Shown: positions 14,015 through 27,257, numbered from the stretch's first letter. The stretch: 64,000 bases of DNA from Pelagibacteraceae bacterium (GCA_019651435.1 BOYI01000001.1:372001-436000); one strand, 5' to 3'. The notes: generated by a model not told the origin, from the sequence alone. Translations and numbers: made by a program.

Positions 14015-15404
14015 ATGTCAAATTTAACATCAGTAGCTTATTTAGTTTCATCTGTTCTCTTCATTTTATCATTAAGAGGACTTTCACACCCCACAACTGC
14101 TAGAAGAGGTAATTTTTATGGAATTGTAGGTATGGCCATCGCCATTATAACTACTGTCTCAAATCCTGGCGTTTTAAGCTATAAGGAGATCGCAATTGCT
14201 TTTGTCATAGGTGGTTTAATAGGAAGTGTTATCGCTGTTCGAATTCAAATGACAGCACTACCTCAGTTAGTAGCTGCATTTCACAGTCTTGTTGGTTTAG
14301 CGGCAGTTTTTGTTGCTGCCTCTGCTTTTTATAATCCAAGCGCATTTAATATAGGTACTGTTGGAAATATTCCTCTTGGAAGTTTAATAGAAATGGCTAT
14401 CGGTACCGCGATTGGTGCAGTAACTTTTACAGGCTCAATTATTGCTTTTGGTAAACTCCAAGGTTTTGTCTCCGGAAATCCATTAGTTTTCAAAGGTCAA
14501 CACCTTCTCAATCTTATCCTTGGTTTTAGGGATAATCGCATTAATTGCAAAATTTTGTATTGATCAAAATCCAGAATACTTCTGGATGATTGTTGCAGCA
14601 TCTTTTTTAATTGGAGTATTGCTTATCGTTCCTATTGGTGGTGCTGATATGCCAGTAATTGTTTCTATGCTTAATTCCTATTCAGGTTGGGCAGCAGCAG
14701 GCATTGGGTTTACACTATCCAATAATCTTTTGATTATTACTGGAGCACTCGTTGGATCTTCTGGAGCTATCTTGAGTTATATCATGTGTAAAGGAATGAA
14801 CCGATCTTTCCTTAATGTTTTACTTGGTGGTTTTGGTGGTGAACAAGCAGCAAGTGAAGGTGGAGCAAAAGATGACCGTGTTGCAAAACAAGGTAATGCT
14901 GCGATGCTGCATTCGTGATGAAAAATAGTAAAACAATTATCATTGTTCCTGGTTACGGTATGGCTGTAGCTCAGGCACAACACGCTCTGAGAGAAATGGG
15001 AGATTTACTTAAAGCTGCAGGAGCTCAAGTCCGATATGCAATTCATCCAGTTGCTGGAAGAATGCCAGGCCACATGAACGTTCTTTTAGCGGAAGCTAAC
15101 GTTCCCTATGATGAAGTTTTAGAATTAGATGAAATTAATAGAGATTTTTCTGAAACTGATGTTGCTTTCGTCATTGGCGCAAATGATGTTACTAACCCAG
15201 CAGCAAAGACAGACAAAACCAGTGCAATTTACGGAATGCCAATTCTTGATGTTGAAAATGCAGGACAAGTATTTTTTGTAAAAAGAGGAATGGCTAGTGG
15301 TTATGCTGGAGTGCAAAATGAACTATTCTTCCGTGACAACACACTAATGTTGTTTGGAGATGCAAAAAGTTTGTGAAGATATTATTAAGGGATTAGAAGA
15401 TTAA
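14015..15404 (+). CDS. pntB: NAD(P) transhydrogenase subunit beta (frameshifts near 14530 and 15370)
   Basis: [61 protein letters not shown]; tail [10 protein letters not shown] at 15404. Confidence 0.92.
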
Positions 15405-15637: not shown

Positions 15638-16265
15638 ATGAAATCAAAGCAAGAAAAATTAGCCAATTCATTTGTTCAAGATGTACCTAAATTTGGCTGG
15701 TCTAGAGAAACCTTACTTCAATGTGCAAAAAAATTGAAGATTTCCACACCAAATCTCGCTCTTCTATTCCCATCATTTGAATATGATGTTTTGAAGTTCT
15801 TAATTGCTCAAAATAATGCTCTCGTTGAAAAAAATTATAATTCTTTCAATAATTCTCGTCTTAAAGTGAGAGATAAAATCAAGACGATCTTAGAATTAAA
15901 GTTTGAGAGTAATGCCTATTTAAAAAAGGCTTTACCAGAGATGTTAAAGTTCTTACTTCGTCCTGGTAATATTTTAATGTCAGTAAAGTTGCTTCATGAA
16001 ATAGTGATTTTATTGGAAACTTTCCGGAGATAAATCTAACGACTTTAGCTACTATTCAAAGAGAGGTTTGCTCTCAATGATTTACCTAGCAACTCTTATT
16101 TATTGGTTAAATGATAGATCAAACAAAAATATTGCTACTAAAAACTTTATAAGCAAATCAGTAGATGGAATTGTTGATGGAGTTTCAAAATTAAAGCAAC
16201 TAGGCACTTTAAGAAGTCTTGCACAAAGTTTTATGGAGAGATATTCAACTCGCAAAGCTTCCTAA
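15638..16265 (+). CDS. COQ9 family protein (frameshift near 16035)
   Basis: Two consecutive ORFs divergent from rpsU; KTILELKFESNAYLKKALPEML then MIYLATLIYWLNDRS typical of alphaproteobacterial COQ9. Confidence 0.7.
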
Positions 16266-17014
16266 GGGCGAGCAGTTAAACCTCCATCAATTATTAACTC
16301 AGTACCAGTGATATATTCGCTTTGATCGCTTAATAAAAACAATATTCCCTGAGCTATTCCTTCAGGCTGAATAACTTTTTTGATTGGCATAAATTCTTTT
16401 AAATTTTTTTTTGCATTTGGGATTTTTTTCCAGCGATCTTGCATAGGAGTCTCAACAGCACCAGGAAGGATACAATTGCTTCGAATATTATAGGATCCAA
16501 ATTGGATAGCCAGTGATTTAGATAGTCGGATCATGGCTGCCTTACTTGCACCATATGCATCTTGAGGTTTGTCATCTCCAGAGAGCGCATCCACTGAGGA
16601 AATGTGAACCATAGATCCAAATTTATTTTTTTTCATTACAGGTATGATTAATTTTGAGAGCAGCACCATAGTCTTAAGATTAATATCAAAGACCTGGTCC
16701 CAAATTTTTAAGTCAAGATCTACCGCAGAAATATCCTTCCCAAACCACAAAACTCCAGTTGTATTTACTAGGTAGTCAATTCTCTTATTGGATTTAACAA
16801 AATTATTGATAGCTTTTTTTAGTTCATCTTGTTTAACTAAATCTAACTGGCAATACGTAATTTTTTTATGTTGTAGGATTTTTTTAGTTGGTTTCTGAAT
16901 ATCAAGAGCAAGAATTTTAATGTTGTAATTGAGCAATAACTTTATTGTTGCTAAACCCATTCCTCCTGCAGCTCCTGTGACAACCACAGTTTTTCCTTTG
17001 AGATTTAAATTCAC
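16262..17014 (-). CDS. SDR-family NAD(P)-dependent oxidoreductase
   Basis: 250 aa; VTGAAGGMGLATI, YGASKAAMIRLSKSLA, ITGTELIIDGGLTARP. Confidence 0.9.
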   Translation of the reverse strand: MNLNLKGKTVVVTGAAGGMGLATIKLLLNYNIKILALDIQKPTKKILQHKKITYCQLDLVKQDELKKAINNFVKSNKRIDYLVNTTGVLWFGKDISAVDLDLKIWDQVFDINLKTMVLLSKLIIPVMKKNKFGSMVHISSVDALSGDDKPQDAYGASKAAMIRLSKSLAIQFGSYNIRSNCILPGAVETPMQDRWKKIPNAKKNLKEFMPIKKVIQPEGIAQGILFLLSDQSEYITGTELIIDGGLTARP

Positions 17015-17123: not shown

Positions 17124-18512
17124 ATGAGTATTCAAAAAACTATTACCCCTATTGACAATTCTGTTTATTTAGAAAGACCTTTATCAACCCAAAATGAAAT
17201 CGATAATGTTATTGAAAATTCCAAAAAAAGTTTTCAATCATGGAAGAGTACTTCTATTGATGATCGTATAAAAATTATTAATAAGTTTATTGATAATTTA
17301 ATAGCTCTTAAACCTGAGGTATCAAAAGAAATTTGCTGGCAGATTGGAAGACCCATCTCTCAATGTGGAAATGAGTTACGAGGCTTTGAAGAGAGGTCAA
17401 GACATATGGTAGAAATTGCAAAAGAGTCTTTAAGAGACATTCCTGCAACTAAAAATGATGAATTTGATAATTATATTTATAAGTCTCCTTTAGGTGTTAT
17501 TTTTGTTATGGCACCTTGGAATTATCCTATTATCACTGCTACTAATACTATTGTTCCCGCATTATTAGCAGGTAATACAATAGTCATAAAACATTCCTCT
17601 CAAACACCTCGGTGTGCAGAGTTAATATCACAAGCTTTTGAAAATACAGGATTGCCTGAAGGTGTATTTCAGTTTGTTCATACAGATCATCAAGCATGTG
17701 AAAAAATTATTGCTGATCCACGAATAGCTCATGTAGTCTTCACCGGCTCAGTGAGAGGAGGTCAAGAAGTTAAGAAATATATTGGAACTCGTTTTATTAA
17801 CGTTGGCTTGGAATTAGGAGGAAAAGATCCTGCTTATGTTCGTTCAGATGCAGATTTAAATCATGCTATTGAGAATTTAGTAGATGGTGCAATGTTTAAC
17901 TCGGGACAGTCTTGTTGCGGCATTGAAAGAATTTATGTTGACCAGTCTATTTATAAGGATTTTATCGATGGATTTAAAACTATAACTGAACAATATAAAT
18001 TAGGTGATCCTTCTCAAGAAGATACAAATTTAGGACCAGTAGTTCGATTATCTGCTGCAAACTTTATTCGCAGTCAAATTTCTGAGGCAGAAAAGCAAGG
18101 AGCAAAGCGATTAATAGATGAATCAAAATTTTCTATAGCAAAAGATGATAATTGTTACATTGCCCCCCAGGTTATGATTGATGTTAATCATTCAATGAGA
18201 TTTATGATGGAGGAAACTTTTGGACCAGCTGTTGGAATTATGCCAGTAAAAGATCAACAAGAAGCAAAACAACTAATGAATGATAGCCCCTACGGTTTAA
18301 CTGCTTCTATTTGGACAAAAGATTTAGATTTTGCAAAAGATTTTGGTAGAGAAATTGAGACGGGCACTTTTTTTATGAATAGATGTGATTATTTAGATCC
18401 TGCTCTTGCTTGGACAGGTGTTAAGGATACCGGAGTAGGTTGTTCCTTATCTGTATTAGCCTTTGATCAATTTACACGCCCTCAAAGTTTTCATATGCGA
18501 AAGGTAGTCTAA
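17124..18512 (+). CDS. Aldehyde dehydrogenase
   Basis: 462 aa; MAPWNYPIITATNTIVPALLAGNT, LELGGKDPAYV, FNSGQSCCGIERIYV. Confidence 0.92.
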   Translation: MSIQKTITPIDNSVYLERPLSTQNEIDNVIENSKKSFQSWKSTSIDDRIKIINKFIDNLIALKPEVSKEICWQIGRPISQCGNELRGFEERSRHMVEIAKESLRDIPATKNDEFDNYIYKSPLGVIFVMAPWNYPIITATNTIVPALLAGNTIVIKHSSQTPRCAELISQAFENTGLPEGVFQFVHTDHQACEKIIADPRIAHVVFTGSVRGGQEVKKYIGTRFINVGLELGGKDPAYVRSDADLNHAIENLVDGAMFNSGQSCCGIERIYVDQSIYKDFIDGFKTITEQYKLGDPSQEDTNLGPVVRLSAANFIRSQISEAEKQGAKRLIDESKFSIAKDDNCYIAPQVMIDVNHSMRFMMEETFGPAVGIMPVKDQQEAKQLMNDSPYGLTASIWTKDLDFAKDFGREIETGTFFMNRCDYLDPALAWTGVKDTGVGCSLSVLAFDQFTRPQSFHMRKVV

Positions 18513-18558
18513 CAAAACAATTTAGATATTCTTTTCATTTGTGTTAGCTTAGTTACTT

Positions 18559-19068
18559 ATGCCTTCGATCTTTATTCTTTATGTAAAACTCATTGATAAG
18601 ATTACAGACATTATAGGTCGCATCACAATGTACACGGTTTTTGTCATGATGGGTATTTTGGTATTATCTTTTGTCACCCGTAATATTATTAATTTTCCTC
18701 TACTTTGGATTATTGAAATGGCCCAATTCATTATGACTGGTTATTATTTGATGGGAGGGGCCTATTCCATGAAGGAAAGTCAGCACGTTCGAATGGATCT
18801 AGTTTATGGAAACTTATCAGATAAAAATAAAGCTAGGATGGATTTGTTTACAAGTGTATTTCTAATTTTTTATCTCTTTGTCTTATTAATCGGTTCTTAT
18901 AATAGCTTAGTATACACACTCGAGACCAATAAAAGACTTTTTACTGCTTGGGCGCCGTATGTATGGCCTATCAGCAGTATTATGTTTTTAGGAATTTTAT
19001 TGATGCTTCTTCAAACATTTTCAACAGTATTTAAAGACTACGCAAAGGTTAAGGGTATAAAAATATAA
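18559..19068 (+). CDS. TRAP transporter small permease (DctQ-like)
   Basis: 169 aa, 4 TM; MGGAYSMKESQHVRMDLVYGNL; overlaps DctM by 1 nt. Confidence 0.88.
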   Translation: MPSIFILYVKLIDKITDIIGRITMYTVFVMMGILVLSFVTRNIINFPLLWIIEMAQFIMTGYYLMGGAYSMKESQHVRMDLVYGNLSDKNKARMDLFTSVFLIFYLFVLLIGSYNSLVYTLETNKRLFTAWAPYVWPISSIMFLGILLMLLQTFSTVFKDYAKVKGIKI

Positions 19069-20399
19069 TGCTCGCTGAATATTTTAGTTACGAAGCTATT
19101 GCGATCCTAATGTTCGTTACGATGCTAGTGATGTTGCTGACTGGTCAAAGAGTTTTTGGAGCGATAGGTTTTGTTGCTGCTGCAGCTGCTTTACTTTTAT
19201 GGGGTGATGGTGCTGTAGAAATGCCATTTACCGCATCATGGAAACTTTTTAAATGGTATCCAATGCTAACACTACCACTATTTATTTATATGGGTTATAT
19301 GATCTCTGAATCTGGAATAGCTAATGATTTATACAAAATGTTCCACGTGTATTTCGGAGGAACCCGAGGGGGCCTCGCAATTGGAACAATGTTTATGATG
19401 GTGGCTATTTCAGCGATGAATGGTTTAAGCGTGGCTGGAATGGCTGTTGGTGCCACCATTGCCTTACCTGAAATGTTAAAAAGAAATTATGACAAAAGGA
19501 TGATAAGTGGAGTTGTTCAGGCTGGTAGTTCGCTTGGAATCTTGATCCCGCCAAGTGTTGTTTTAGTTCTTTATGGAATGATCGCTCGACAGCCTGTAAG
19601 TAAACTTTGGCTTGCTGGTTTAATCCCAGGTTTGATAATGGCTTCTCTTTTTATTCTATACATTTATATACGTTGTCGATTACAACCAGAGCTAGGACCA
19701 GTACTTCCAAAAAAAGAAAGAGAAATGCCGTTCATTGAAAAGCTTAAACTCTTAAGAGCCGGTATAATTCCATTTGCAATTTTCTTTGTAATGACAGGAC
19801 TTTTTATTATGGGAATAGCAAGTCTTGTTGAATGTTCAGCGGTTGGAGCTTTAGCAGCTACTCTTGCTGCTTGGTCTAAAGGAAGACTAAATTTGAGAGT
19901 AATTGAAGATGTTTGTAAAAAAACATTAGGTGTCTCATGTATGTTCATGTGGATTATCCTTGCAGCACTGTGTTTTGGAGCAGTTTTTGATGGTATAGGT
20001 GCAGTCAAAGCAATTGAGTCTTTGTTTATTGAGCGATGGAATTTAAGTCCTTGGGGTGTTTTAATTATGATGCAGTTATCTTACATTTTGATGGGAATGT
20101 TTTTAGATGATACTGCAATGTTAGTCATTGTAGCACCTTTATATGTTCCATTAATTATAGCTTTGGGATTTGATCCAATTTGGTATGGCGTTCTCTATAC
20201 GATTACATGTCAAATAGCATATATGACTCCACCTTTTGGTTATAATTTATTTTTAATGAAAGCAATGGCCCCAAAAGAAATAACGTTAATTGATATTTAT
20301 CGTTCAATTATTCCTTTTGTTTTGGTTATGTTATTTGGATTGGTGATTATGATGATGTTCCCACAAATCGCTCTCTGGCTTCCGACTACTCTGCTTTAA
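19068..20399 (+). CDS. TRAP transporter large permease (DctM-like)
   Basis: 443 aa; AGSSLGILIPPSVVLVLYG, TPPFGYNLFLMK. Confidence 0.93.
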   Translation: MLAEYFSYEAIAILMFVTMLVMLLTGQRVFGAIGFVAAAAALLLWGDGAVEMPFTASWKLFKWYPMLTLPLFIYMGYMISESGIANDLYKMFHVYFGGTRGGLAIGTMFMMVAISAMNGLSVAGMAVGATIALPEMLKRNYDKRMISGVVQAGSSLGILIPPSVVLVLYGMIARQPVSKLWLAGLIPGLIMASLFILYIYIRCRLQPELGPVLPKKEREMPFIEKLKLLRAGIIPFAIFFVMTGLFIMGIASLVECSAVGALAATLAAWSKGRLNLRVIEDVCKKTLGVSCMFMWIILAALCFGAVFDGIGAVKAIESLFIERWNLSPWGVLIMMQLSYILMGMFLDDTAMLVIVAPLYVPLIIALGFDPIWYGVLYTITCQIAYMTPPFGYNLFLMKAMAPKEITLIDIYRSIIPFVLVMLFGLVIMMMFPQIALWLPTTLL

Positions 20400-20472
20400 T
20401 AATAAATTCAAGCCATAATCTTTATTCCTAATTCAAATTTTTTTTTATATAATTTGACTCCGGAGGAAAATT

Positions 20473-21556
20473 ATGTCGACAAAAAAGAAAAATAATATCT
20501 CTCCATCTTCAAGGAGAGGTTTTCTAAAAAAAGCCGGATTAGTATCAAGCCGCAGCTATTGGTGCAACAGCTGCAAAGGCACCATACGTCTATGCTGCTT
20601 CTAATCCAATTAAATGGAGACTGCAAACTTATTCAGGTGCTCCACTAGGTGCACACGTTGTTCTCCCTCAGATTGAAGCTTTCAATAAAGCAGCTTATGG
20701 AGAAATGGAAATTGAGTTGTACTATGCTGATCAACTAGTACCAACTGATGAACTGTTTAGAGCAATGCAAGCAGGAACTATTGATGCTGTTCAATCAGAC
20801 GATGCAACTATGGGTTCACCAGTAGATATCTCTGTTTTTGGTGGATACTTCCCATTTGCTACTCGTTATAGCCTCGACGTTCCAGCGATGTTCAGATACT
20901 ACGGTCTTGATAAAATCTGGGCTGAAGCATATGGCGAAGTAGATAACGTAACATGGTTAAGCACAAGTGCTTGGGATCCATGTCACTTATTTACGGTTAA
21001 TAAGAAAATTGAAAAGCTTGAGGACATGAAAGGTCTAAGAGTATTCGGTGTTCCAACTGCTGGTCGTTTCCTAGCTCAATACGGATTAATTCCTGTAATT
21101 GTTCCTTGGGATGATGTGGAAGTAGCAATGCAGACTGGTGAACTTGATGGTGTTTGCTGGTGTGGATTTACTGAAGCTTACGAAGTTGGATGGGCAGACA
21201 TTTGTAACTATGCTCTTACTAACTCAGTAACTGGTGCATGGTTTGGTTCTTATTTTGCTAACAGTGAAAGCTGGAACAAACTTTCACCAAAACTTCAAGA
21301 GCTTTTCAAAATGTCAATTGACCAATCTCACTACTATAGACAAGTATGGTATTGGGGTGGTGAAGCTGACCTACGTGTTAATGGTAAGAAGATGGAATTA
21401 TCAAGTCTTCCTGCAGACGAGTGGGCCGGTGTTGTCAAAGACGCTGAAAAATTCTGGGATGATGTTGCAGCTTCTTCGCCAAGAAGTGGCAAAGTGGTTG
21501 AGGCATTCAAATTGTATGCAGCAACTATGGACAAAGCAGGTTATCCATACAGATAA
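20473..21556 (+). CDS. TRAP transporter substrate-binding protein with Tat-type signal (frameshift near 20550)
   Basis: SSRRGFLKKAGLVS then, after a 1-nt shift, AAIGATAAKAPYVYAA; mature protein LQTYSGAPLGAHVVLPQI...LRVFGVPTAGRFLAQYGLIPV. Confidence 0.9.
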
Positions 21557-21566
21557 TATAATTTTT

Positions 21567-21600
21567 AGCTCACCTCATATAGTTATGGGGTGAGCTTTTC
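21567..21600 (+). terminator. Rho-independent terminator after dctP
   Basis: AGCTCACC...GGTGAGCT inverted repeat followed by TTTTCTT. Confidence 0.75.
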
Positions 21601-21611
21601 TTAAATAAAAA

Positions 21612-22974
21612 ATGTCATTAAATTTTAAACAATTAGAAAAAAAAGATTAAGTCAGGCGATATTGATACGGTTCTTGTGGCTTTATCAGATATGCAAGGAA
21701 GATTAGTGGGCAAAAGAGTTACAGGTAAAGCTTTTTTAGACTATGTTCACAAAGAAACTCATTTTTGTAATTACCTTTATACTGTTGATATGGACATGTT
21801 CACTGTGCCTGGGTTTAAATCTTCCTCTTGGGAGACGGGCTACGGAGACATGACCGTAATCCCCGATCATCAAACAATAAAAGAATTACCCTGGTTAGAA
21901 AAAACCGCATTAGTTTTAGGAGATGCCTTTGAGCATGATGGAAAAACTCCAGTGGCGCATTCTACAAGACAGGTTTTAAGAGAGGCTATAGCCAAAGCAA
22001 ATAAAATGGGATTTGAGCCAATGCTCGGATCGGAATTAGAATTTTTTCTCTTTAAACAAACTTATGAAGAAATTCATGCTAATCACTATAAAAATTTAAA
22101 AGAGACCTCTTGGTACATTGAAGACTACATGCTTTTTCAAACTTCAAAAGAAGAACCTTTTAATCAAGAGTTAAGAAATAATCTTTTAGCTGCAGGCATT
22201 TATGTAGAGTGTACCAAAGGTGAAGCGGCACCAGGCCAACAAGAAATTAACGTTGTCTTTACTGATGCGTTGAACATGGCAGATAATCATATTTTGATTA
22301 AGAACGCCGCAAAAGAAATTGCATTCAAACATAATCGAGCAGCTAGCTTTATGGCAAAATATAATAAAGAGGCTTGTGGTAGTTCATGTCATATTCACAA
22401 TTCTTTATTTGATAAAAAAACTAAAAAAAATACTTTTGCAGACTCTAAAGACAAATATGGAATGTCTAAAGTTTTTAAAAGTTACGTTGCGGGACAAATT
22501 TTATTCTTAAGAGATCTTTCTATTTTCTTAGCTCCAAATATTAATTCCTATAAACGCTTTCAAGAGGGTTCATTTGCACCAACGACAGCTGCTTGGGGTA
22601 TCGATAACAGAACAGCTGGTTTTCGCTTAGCCGGACATGGGGGGTCAATAAGAATTGAATGTCGAGTACCAGGTGCTGACGTTAATCCTTATTTGGCTTT
22701 TGCCGGTTTGATCCAAGCTGGTTTATATGGAATCGAAAATAAATTAGAGCTTGAAGACCCTTTAATGGGAAATATTTACCAAAACAAAAAAGCAAAAAGT
22801 GTCCCTGGTACTTTGAGGGAAGCTATTGATTTAGCTAAAAAATCTAAGTTACTCCCCAAGATTTTCCAACCTGATGTTTTGGAGCACTATATTCATGCTG
22901 CAGAATGGGAACAGTCTGAATATGATAAATCTGTAAACGATTGGGAACACCAACGTTACTTTGAACGAGGATAA
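21612..22974 (+). CDS. Glutamine synthetase-family protein, possible gamma-glutamyl-amine ligase (frameshift in A-run near 21642)
   Basis: N-term MSLNFKQLEKK then SGDIDTVLVALSDMQGRLVGKRV; GEAAPGQQEINVVF, CGSSCHIHNSL, RIECRVPGADVNPYLAFAG. Confidence 0.85.
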
Positions 22975-22988
22975 AATAGGAGACTAAA

Positions 22989-24134
22989 ATGCAAAATATG
23001 AATTGGAATTACCCAACCACTGTCTGGTTTGGCCCTGATCGATCTCAGCAAATACAACAAGCTTGTGATGCTTTGGGTATAAAAAACCCTCTTATTGTGA
23101 CTGACCCAGGTCTGCTGCAAACTCCTATTATTGATGAAATTAATTCTAATCTTTCATCTAAAACAAATGTCTACTCTGATGTTCAAGGAAATCCTACTGG
23201 CTCAAATGTTACCAATGGAGTTAAGGTATTTTTAGAAGGTAATCATGACGGGGTTATTGCAATAGGTGGTGGTTCCGGAATGGATGCTGGTAAGGGAATT
23301 GCTTTTCTAGCTCATCAATCAAGACCATTATGGGACTTTGAAGATATTGGAGACTGGTGGACTCGAGCTGACTCTAATGTCATCAAACCTATTATTGCGA
23401 TTCCAACTACAGCAGGAACAGGTTCTGAAGTTGGAAGAGCAGGGGTTTTCTTGAATGAAGATAATCATAAAAAGAAAATTATTTTTCATCCAAAGATGTT
23501 ACCTCAAATTGCAATCTTAGATCCTTCTTTAACAATTAACCTACCAAAAGGAATTACAGCTGGAACAGGGATGGATGCACTAGCTCATTGCTTAGAAGCT
23601 TACTCATCTCCTTTTTATCATCCTATGGCAGAGGGTACGGCTTTAGAAGGTCTTCGTTTAGTGAAAGAAAATATTCAAGAGGTTTATCATAATGGAAAAA
23701 ATATTGAAGCTCGTGCACATATGCTTGTAGCATCAATGATGGGTGCGGCTGCTTTTCAAAAAGGACTAGGAGCTATTCATTCAATTACTCACCCAGTTAA
23801 TTCTCTTTATCATACTCACCATGGTACCACGAACGGAACAGTGATGCCTTTTGTCTTAAACTACAATCGAAGCACGATTGAAGATAAATTTGTGCGTTTA
23901 GCTAATTTCTTAGATATCAAAGGTGGTTTTGATGGAATAGTACAATGGGTTATTGATTTGAAAAAAGAAATGGAAATTCCTGAAACACTCAAAGATATGG
24001 GCGTTCAACCGGGAGATGAAGTCAAATTAGCACCGCTAGCGCAAGAAGACCCAAGCACAGGCGGCAATCCATTGGAGATGACTGAAGAGAAATTCCAGGA
24101 GCTAATTGCGAACTGTATTTCAGGTAAATATTAA
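22989..24134 (+). CDS. Iron-containing alcohol dehydrogenase
   Basis: 381 aa; AIGGGSGMDAGKGIAFLA, IPTTAGTGSEVGRAGVF, GMDALAHCLEAY, GAIHSITHPVN. Confidence 0.93.
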   Translation: MQNMNWNYPTTVWFGPDRSQQIQQACDALGIKNPLIVTDPGLLQTPIIDEINSNLSSKTNVYSDVQGNPTGSNVTNGVKVFLEGNHDGVIAIGGGSGMDAGKGIAFLAHQSRPLWDFEDIGDWWTRADSNVIKPIIAIPTTAGTGSEVGRAGVFLNEDNHKKKIIFHPKMLPQIAILDPSLTINLPKGITAGTGMDALAHCLEAYSSPFYHPMAEGTALEGLRLVKENIQEVYHNGKNIEARAHMLVASMMGAAAFQKGLGAIHSITHPVNSLYHTHHGTTNGTVMPFVLNYNRSTIEDKFVRLANFLDIKGGFDGIVQWVIDLKKEMEIPETLKDMGVQPGDEVKLAPLAQEDPSTGGNPLEMTEEKFQELIANCISGKY

Positions 24135-24137
24135 AAT

Positions 24138-24914
24138 TTATAATTTCAAAAACTGCTTGTGTGCTTTAGCAGATATGCTTGCTACCACATCGCCGTTAGA
24201 CTGAAAATTTAGTGATTTTCCATGCCAATCAGTAATTATTCCACCAGTTTCCTCAATAACATTTACTAAAGCTAAATAATCAAAGGGCTTCAGAAAAGAC
24301 TCTACTACAAACGGAATTCTTTTCTCAGCTAAAAGTCCATATTGAACACAGTCACCACCAAATGTGATGTATTGGGTTTTTTTTGCCAAGGATCTATATT
24401 TTTTATTTTTTGATGAGTCTTGATACGCAGTCATTCCCGATGTGCTAAAGAACAATTCTTTTAATGATTGATCTGAGGATACTTTTTTAAGTTTTTGATT
24501 ATTACAAAAAGCTCCATGGTTTTTAATCCCTATCCATCTTTTTTTTAATTGAGGGCAATTAATAATTCCAATAATTGGAGCTCCTTGATGACAAAGAGCT
24601 AAAAGCGTACCGTAATTTCCATTTCCATTAATAAAGTTTTTTGTTCCATCAATGGGATCGATAACCCATATAAATTCAGATCGAAGATTTTTATTTTGAT
24701 ATTCCTCACCATAAATTCCATGTTCAGGATATTTTTGACTAATTAGTTTTCTCAATGATCTCTCTACTTGCATATCAATTTTAGTAACTGGAGATCGGTC
24801 TATTTTAAAATTTACTTTTATTTTTGACGGGGTGTTTTGTTTGACTATTTTTTCTGAGACATTAATTAGTTTTTTGGCAAAATTTAAATAGGAATTTAAT
24901 TCACTCTTTCTCAT
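24138..24914 (-). CDS. Inositol monophosphatase family protein, histidinol-phosphatase-like
   Basis: 258 aa; YGEEY, WVIDPIDGTKNFINGN, PFDYLALVNVIEETGG. Confidence 0.85.
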   Translation of the reverse strand: MRKSELNSYLNFAKKLINVSEKIVKQNTPSKIKVNFKIDRSPVTKIDMQVERSLRKLISQKYPEHGIYGEEYQNKNLRSEFIWVIDPIDGTKNFINGNGNYGTLLALCHQGAPIIGIINCPQLKKRWIGIKNHGAFCNNQKLKKVSSDQSLKELFFSTSGMTAYQDSSKNKKYRSLAKKTQYITFGGDCVQYGLLAEKRIPFVVESFLKPFDYLALVNVIEETGGIITDWHGKSLNFQSNGDVVASISAKAHKQFLKL

Positions 24915-26003: not shown

Positions 26004-26411
26004 ATGATTGAAAATTTTAATGGAATTTTTTATTTAATTATTTTTTTAGTTATATTGGCAATGAATACTTTTTATGGTTTCAATTGCCTATTCAATACTC
26101 AAAAATTTTTAGAAAAATATGAAGTTGATATATCTGCTTCTTTCTTTTGTCGTTTTGCAGGAGGAGTGATAATGGGAGCGGTATTAATGCAACTATATAT
26201 TCTTTTTAGAGGAACAGAAGCCACTTGGGCATTTTTCAATTTCATGTTCATCATGATGACCTTAATTGCAGGAGCTTCCTTCTATGGATTTGAAATAGAT
26301 AAGCTTGGATTAACGAAGGGATCTAGTAGAGAGGGTTATATATCTACTGGTGTATTAGCAATTCTTTGGGCTATTCTTTGTTTTGGTCTGGCGGATAAAA
26401 TTTATATTTAA
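26004..26411 (+). CDS. Small integral membrane protein of unknown function
   Basis: 135 aa, about 4 hydrophobic segments, 2 nt after the GYD gene. Confidence 0.65.
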   Translation: MIENFNGIFYLIIFLVILAMNTFYGFNCLFNTQKFLEKYEVDISASFFCRFAGGVIMGAVLMQLYILFRGTEATWAFFNFMFIMMTLIAGASFYGFEIDKLGLTKGSSREGYISTGVLAILWAILCFGLADKIYI

Positions 26412-27257
26412 CGGTTTTTGATAAAATAAATAAATATCAAAGAGGTTAAATACATAATTAAACTATATGTGGCGGCGGGTATAATATAAAGCCCGCCCCC
26501 AAAAACTGTAGTTCCTACAAAGATGGCAAGAGTTCCATTTTGTAACCCACATTCAATTGCGATTGCTTTTTTTTGAGAAATTCCCGTTCCAAAAAATCCC
26601 GACCAATAAAATGCAATTAACATCATTAAAATATTCAAAGTAAGGACCACTAGACCTGTTTGCGCAAAATAGCTAACTACATTTTCTCTTTCAGCTAAAA
26701 TGGCACCCAGTAGGACTAAAACAAATAACAGTGTTGAGATAAATCTAGCAGATTTTTCTATTTTCAAGGTTAGACTATTTAAAAAAGACCTCACTCCCAT
26801 TCCCAAAAGAACAGGTAGAGTTACTATTAAAAACATACTCAATGCTATACCTGTAAGAGAAATAGACTCTGGTAAACTAGAGTCTCCAATCAATCCAATT
26901 GATATAGCAAGAACGATTGGACACACTTACCGCACTCAATAAACTCATTACCGCAGTCAGAGATACAGAAAGCGCAACATCTCCTTTTGCAAAAAATGTT
27001 AATATATTAGATGTAACACCACCTGGTGCTGCTGCTATTAGCATTACCCCAATTGCAATTTCAATGGGTAGGGGCCAAATGATTACCAATACCAAACCAA
27101 CTATTGGAAGAAAAATAAGTTGACTAACAAGTCCAACTAGGAAATTTTTTGGTTTTTTAAATACATTTGAAAAATCAGAAATTGATAAGCCCAGACCTAA
27201 GGTAAACATAATAAAGGCTAGAGCTAGAGGTAGAATCACATCAGTTACAAAATTCAT
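26408..27257 (-). CDS. Bile acid:sodium symporter family protein (frameshift near 26900)
   Basis: FIMFTLGLGLSISDF, MLIAAAPGGVTSNILTFFAKGDVALSVSLTA, IAIECGLQNGTLAIFVG across two ORFs. Confidence 0.9.

Follow-up and report, generated by a model that had tools for sequence, protein, structure and literature searches.

The window, that is, the whole 64,000-nucleotide stretch of DNA that was analysed, carries a run of six plus-strand genes. In order, these encode an aldehyde dehydrogenase (ALDH, 17124..18512; Pfam Aldedh, 5.6e-119), the TRAP small permease EtoV (DctQ, 18559..19068; Pfam DctQ, 3e-19), the TRAP large permease EtoW (DctM, 19068..20399; Pfam DctM, 4e-67), a DctP protein assigned here as EtoX, the predicted ethanolamine-binding TRAP protein (20473..21556; Pfam DctP, 1e-13), a GS-like ligase predicted to be a gamma-glutamylethanolamide synthetase (21612..22974; Pfam Gln-synt_C, 5e-98) and an iron-containing alcohol dehydrogenase (Fe-ADH, 22989..24134; Pfam Fe-ADH, 1e-45). 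The places, order and strand given for the six genes in the original prediction were borne out, the Pfam matches are clear, and the gene order is kept in related genomes. An SDR-family dehydrogenase gene (16262..17014, minus strand; Pfam adh_short_C2, 5e-51) diverges from the operon, and the cluster boundary should be moved further left to include it. At the other end, an inositol-monophosphatase/HisN-like gene (24138-24914, minus strand) adjoins the operon; IMPase-family genes also neighbour ligases of this clade in Ruegeria conchae (37% identical) and Arthrobacter (31%).

The true start of etoX is the ATG at 20473, the listed ORF (20705-21556) beginning at an internal start, and the N-terminus of EtoX carries a twin-arginine signal, SRRGFLKKAG; the ligase gene starts at the ATG at 21612, where the listed ORF covers 21676-22974. 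A 1-nt frame break is located near 20550 in etoX, and another lies inside the A8 run at 21637-21644 of the ligase gene. Since both genes are unbroken in relatives and other genes of the window are split likewise, these breaks are likely to be sequencing or assembly indels. The other split genes are transhydrogenase-like (14015-15376), COQ9-like (15638-16033) and BASS-like transporter (26408-27257) genes, which are fragmented into overlapping or short ORFs here versus a single ORF in relatives, and this suggests systematic indels in the assembly. The gene at 15638 was rejected as a TetR regulator of the operon, as its intact relative matches COQ9.

The best PDB relative of EtoX, at E = 9e-116, is 4uab/4xf5, against 1e-9 for the runner-up, and EtoX is 60% identical to Csal_0678 (4uab). 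It has been reported that the crystal structure of Csal_0678 holds ethanolamine via Glu220 and aromatic side chains (PMC12410723), and that Csal_0678 is without the Arg responsible for the carboxylate preference of TRAP proteins (PMC4646407). In the EtoX fragment, E157 is invariant in 75 of 75 homologues and is the probable ligand-platform Glu, the counterpart of Csal_0678 Glu220, given a presumed +3 numbering offset from chain position 217; F114 aligns with the Arg of the carboxylate-type TRAP protein 4pet and is a Phe, again in 75/75, the conservation of the pocket having been judged from sequence alone. A carboxylate-type TRAP protein is ruled out by the missing Arg and the kinship with 4uab, and the DctP protein does not belong to a carboxylate-only clade. 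An independent pointer to ethanolamine is provided by a Desulfuromusa MAG, where the same TRAP genes lie directly upstream of BMC, eutP, regulator, eutA, eutB and eutC genes; this neighbourhood is a classical ethanolamine ammonia-lyase system with microcompartment genes. The substrate, which the original prediction had left unknown, can be named from the kinship with Csal_0678, the two conserved residues and the Desulfuromusa eut context: these features strongly indicate that the DctP protein of the window is EtoX, with ethanolamine as its substrate.

An improbable alternative, to which a second solved entry of Csal_0678 (4xf5, which we take to be its alaninol complex) and a pathway chemistry that would be equally workable lend some support, is that the same machinery has another small amino alcohol (alaninol, serinol or 1-amino-2-propanol) as its main natural substrate, with ethanolamine being secondary. 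The occurrence of the same TRAP genes beside ethanolamine ammonia-lyase genes argues against this, as does the Phaeobacter homologue, which binds ethanolamine and is induced on phosphoethanolamine (PMC10132767).

In a 39-row maximum-likelihood tree, from which GlnA4 and IpuC sequences were left out, the GS-like ligase groups with Csal_0679 (5dm3), 11zs and EtoX-linked ligases in a clade with 100/100 support, apart from GlnA, PuuA and GmaS; its assignment to the non-GlnA members of the family is thereby upheld. The ATP/glutamate residues E129, E131, E220, H269, R321, R339 and R359 are retained, while D50, S53, Y179 and E327, which make up the ammonium site of GS, have P, K, D and F in their place, and the ammonium site has been lost. 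The ligase scores 234 bits against the NCBIfam model for GlnA (cut-off 429), 185 bits against that for gamma-glutamylputrescine synthetase, PuuA (cut-off 650), and 225 bits against that for type III GS (cut-off 469.6). A separate true GlnA is encoded elsewhere in the genome, where about seven GS-family genes occur in 1.35 Mb (genome G000, contigs C1, C3 and C4), four of these lying in a stretch of about 30 kb on C3. The GS-like protein is accordingly named here as a predicted gamma-glutamylethanolamide synthetase.

The tree rules out a PuuA- or GmaS-type ligase, and it is very unlikely that the genes form a putrescine or methylamine pathway of the PuuA or GmaS kind, standing by chance beside an unrelated TRAP transporter. 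Such a pathway could find some support in a sister family, where an EtoX-lacking GS-ALDH-FeADH set adjoins four ABC-transporter-like genes, an ABC label that is an interpretation, the SBP being without an NCBIfam match, and a D-amino-acid-dehydrogenase-like gene; however, besides the position of the ligase outside both clades and its low score against PuuA, a diamine calls for an amine oxidase (PuuB), not an alcohol dehydrogenase, and the TRAP genes lie inside the same gene run. The reading as another true glutamine synthetase, serving nitrogen assimilation amid an unrelated catabolic operon, has a Gln-synt_C fold and a full set of ATP/glutamate residues in its favour, but its probability is negligible and a true GlnA is ruled out in view of the four ammonium-site replacements, the GlnA score, the separate clade and the true GlnA found elsewhere.

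The locus is, with high probability, an operon of the EtoVWX type for the uptake of ethanolamine and its catabolism via gamma-glutamyl intermediates, and the original prediction of a TRAP-fed, gamma-glutamyl-dependent pathway for amino alcohols was right in outline, as the ligase clade, the EtoX kinship and the gene set attest. What is observed is the gene content, the placement in families and the pattern of active-site residues; from here on, the enzymatic steps in this organism are inferred, most of all which protein is the hydrolase. EtoX would bind periplasmic ethanolamine, and EtoVW would bring it into the cell. The GS-like ligase would then join ethanolamine to glutamate using ATP, giving gamma-glutamylethanolamide, which Fe-ADH, and possibly the SDR too, would oxidise to gamma-glutamylacetaldehyde; ALDH would convert this aldehyde to gamma-glutamylglycine, and release of glutamate and glycine would fall to a hydrolase from elsewhere in the genome, possibly a PuuD-like peptidase C26.

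The original prediction had noted no visible gamma-glutamyl hydrolase, and indeed none is present in the gene run. FGase is the hydrolase family that occupies that place in the Paracoccus operon and others, and Phaeobacter's own gamma-glutamylglycine amidohydrolase would, to judge from the matching P. denitrificans layout, also be FGase-type; the FGase family was found neither in the window's genome nor in any sampled relative (0 of 60 genomes of the order). A peptidase C26/PuuD-like gene is located at contig C1:307206-308087 and occurs in 55 of the 60 genomes, independent of EtoX. C26 genes lie near the same ligase clade in Arthrobacter and Paraburkholderia, so the C26 protein is a plausible candidate for the replacement of FGase; being near-universal, it was rejected as an EtoX-linked hydrolase and is a candidate only. 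The lack of an operon hydrolase, with a near-universal gene as the candidate, counts against the EtoVWX reading. The GATase of SAR11 (c34) was likewise rejected as the EtoX-linked hydrolase in this order: its homologues here, at about 30% identity, are common and show no tie to EtoX.

Meanwhile, the SDR gene is closely associated with EtoX, being present in 12 of 12 EtoX-positive versus 1 of 48 EtoX-negative related genomes (n = 60; Fisher 9e-12, a value that ignores kinship and physical linkage), and in loci of SAR11 and the HIMB59 order it lies next to EtoX genes. For Streptomyces, it has been proposed that an SCO1611 dehydrogenase, whose cluster also includes a short-chain dehydrogenase, oxidises the alcohol (PMC6529630), and by this analogy the SDR may be a second gamma-glutamylethanolamide dehydrogenase. 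The window SDR is only 27% identical to the SDR of the Arthrobacter cluster. The apparent redundancy of SDR and Fe-ADH is a further point against the EtoVWX reading.

The ligase is more widely spread than EtoX and is found in 43 of the 60 related genomes. In EtoX-lacking congeners, the same place is taken by ALDH-GS-FeADH without SDR and TRAP, and SAR11 loci and three HIMB59-order loci have EtoVWX and then SDR with no ligase between; a ligase orthologue was not found in the SAR11 genomes or the three HIMB59-order genomes without a linked ligase, some of which are incomplete (best match 38%). Importer and ligase are thus not strictly linked, which also weighs against the EtoVWX reading. SAR11 loci L079-L088 show EtoVWX-SDR-ALDH-FeADH, again with no ligase; a GATase-fold gene follows FeADH in eight SAR11 loci, all those long enough to show it, and by the tree SAR11 has a GmaS-clade ligase elsewhere. 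In another genome of the same order (G038, L065:4893-8249), SDR-ALDH-FeADH occurs without EtoX or ligase, by ABC-transporter-like and D-amino-acid-dehydrogenase-like genes. In congener G030 (L027:5470-6834), a gene between ALDH and DctQ of the corresponding operon matches the model for PbfA, (R)-1-hydroxy-2-aminoethylphosphonate ammonia-lyase, with 665 bits (cut-off 525), a hint that the operon may be connected with the use of aminoethylphosphonate. EtoX is much more conserved than its partners, with a median identity of 80% between the window and Rhodobacterales homologues (L089-L119) versus 47-54% for GS, ALDH and FeADH. At L136:2010-7004, at L200 and at many Rhodobacterales EtoX loci, the EtoX TRAP genes often have as neighbours a gene for an FGGY kinase, two for FAD-dependent dehydrogenases and one for a DeoR/GlpR regulator; the kinase and FAD-dehydrogenase neighbours too stand against the EtoVWX reading. 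It can be tentatively suggested that, among streamlined ocean Alphaproteobacteria, HIMB59-like bacteria and SAR11 have a distinct variant of ethanolamine catabolism, in which the EtoX-linked SDR is integral, FGase is replaced by unrelated enzymes of the glutamine-amidotransferase fold and, in SAR11, the job of the ligase possibly falls to a GmaS-like ligase encoded elsewhere, although this variant is rather less likely to hold than not.

Membrane phosphatidylethanolamine yields ethanolamine, a nitrogen and carbon source that is widespread in the sea, and in an ocean survey most alphaproteobacterial etoX genes were left in an unassigned group (PMC10132767). The window places a full operon in a genome that appears to be HIMB59/AEGEAN-169-like, and in the literature searched no report linking this clade to ethanolamine use was found. 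Within the collection of named genomes, the relatives of the window are uncultured Alphaproteobacteria such as AG-333-K07. The pathway itself is known; what is new is its presence in this taxon, its lack of an operon hydrolase and its association with the SDR. In addition, transporter, ligase and SDR/ALDH/ADH genes each have their own distribution among genomes, and finding etoX is therefore no proof of a gamma-glutamyl ligase.

The closest published system is the operon of Phaeobacter sp. MED193 (MED193_10021-10056), which encodes RpiR, an amidohydrolase, EtoV, EtoW, EtoX, a ligase, ALDH and an alcohol dehydrogenase; five operon proteins are up on phosphoethanolamine, and EtoX binds ethanolamine with a Kd of 7.9 uM (PMC10132767). 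The window shares with it an adjacent TRAP importer, GS-like ligase, ALDH and alcohol dehydrogenase and the same proposed chemistry, but its ALDH gene precedes the TRAP genes, the run contains no RpiR or amidohydrolase gene, and a divergent SDR is present. The annotated operon of Paracoccus denitrificans has the same layout as that of Phaeobacter, and its sequences stood in for Phaeobacter in the identity comparisons: ALDH is 50% identical over 422 aa, EtoV 40%, EtoW 62%, Fe-ADH 56% and the ligase 48%, so that the TRAP, ALDH and Fe-ADH proteins span 40-62%. Since the gene set of the window matches those of Phaeobacter and P. denitrificans, it is a member of that kind, for which a TRAP importer is normal; the suggestion that a TRAP importer would make this an unusual variant does not stand, as it is the published EtoVWX arrangement (PMC10132767). 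Chromohalobacter salexigens Csal_0678/Csal_0679 (4uab, 5dm3) is related on both sides, through its EtoX at the identity given above and through a ligase of the same fully supported clade. The GlnA4 cluster of Streptomyces coelicolor combines a gamma-glutamylethanolamide synthetase with ALDH and a dehydrogenase predicted to oxidise the alcohol (PMC6529630); in that system, the enzyme proposed for alcohol oxidation is an SDR and the importer is an amino-acid-type permease (absent from S. coelicolor itself), whereas the window has SDR plus Fe-ADH and a TRAP transporter. Other importers, for instance an amino-acid permease in Rhizobium, are also found with the ligase-ALDH-FeADH set. The Puu pathway of E. 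coli follows the same logic of glutamylation, oxidation and hydrolysis, but its ligase falls in another clade, the FAD oxidase PuuB takes the place of the alcohol dehydrogenase, and the window ALDH is only 28% identical to PuuC.
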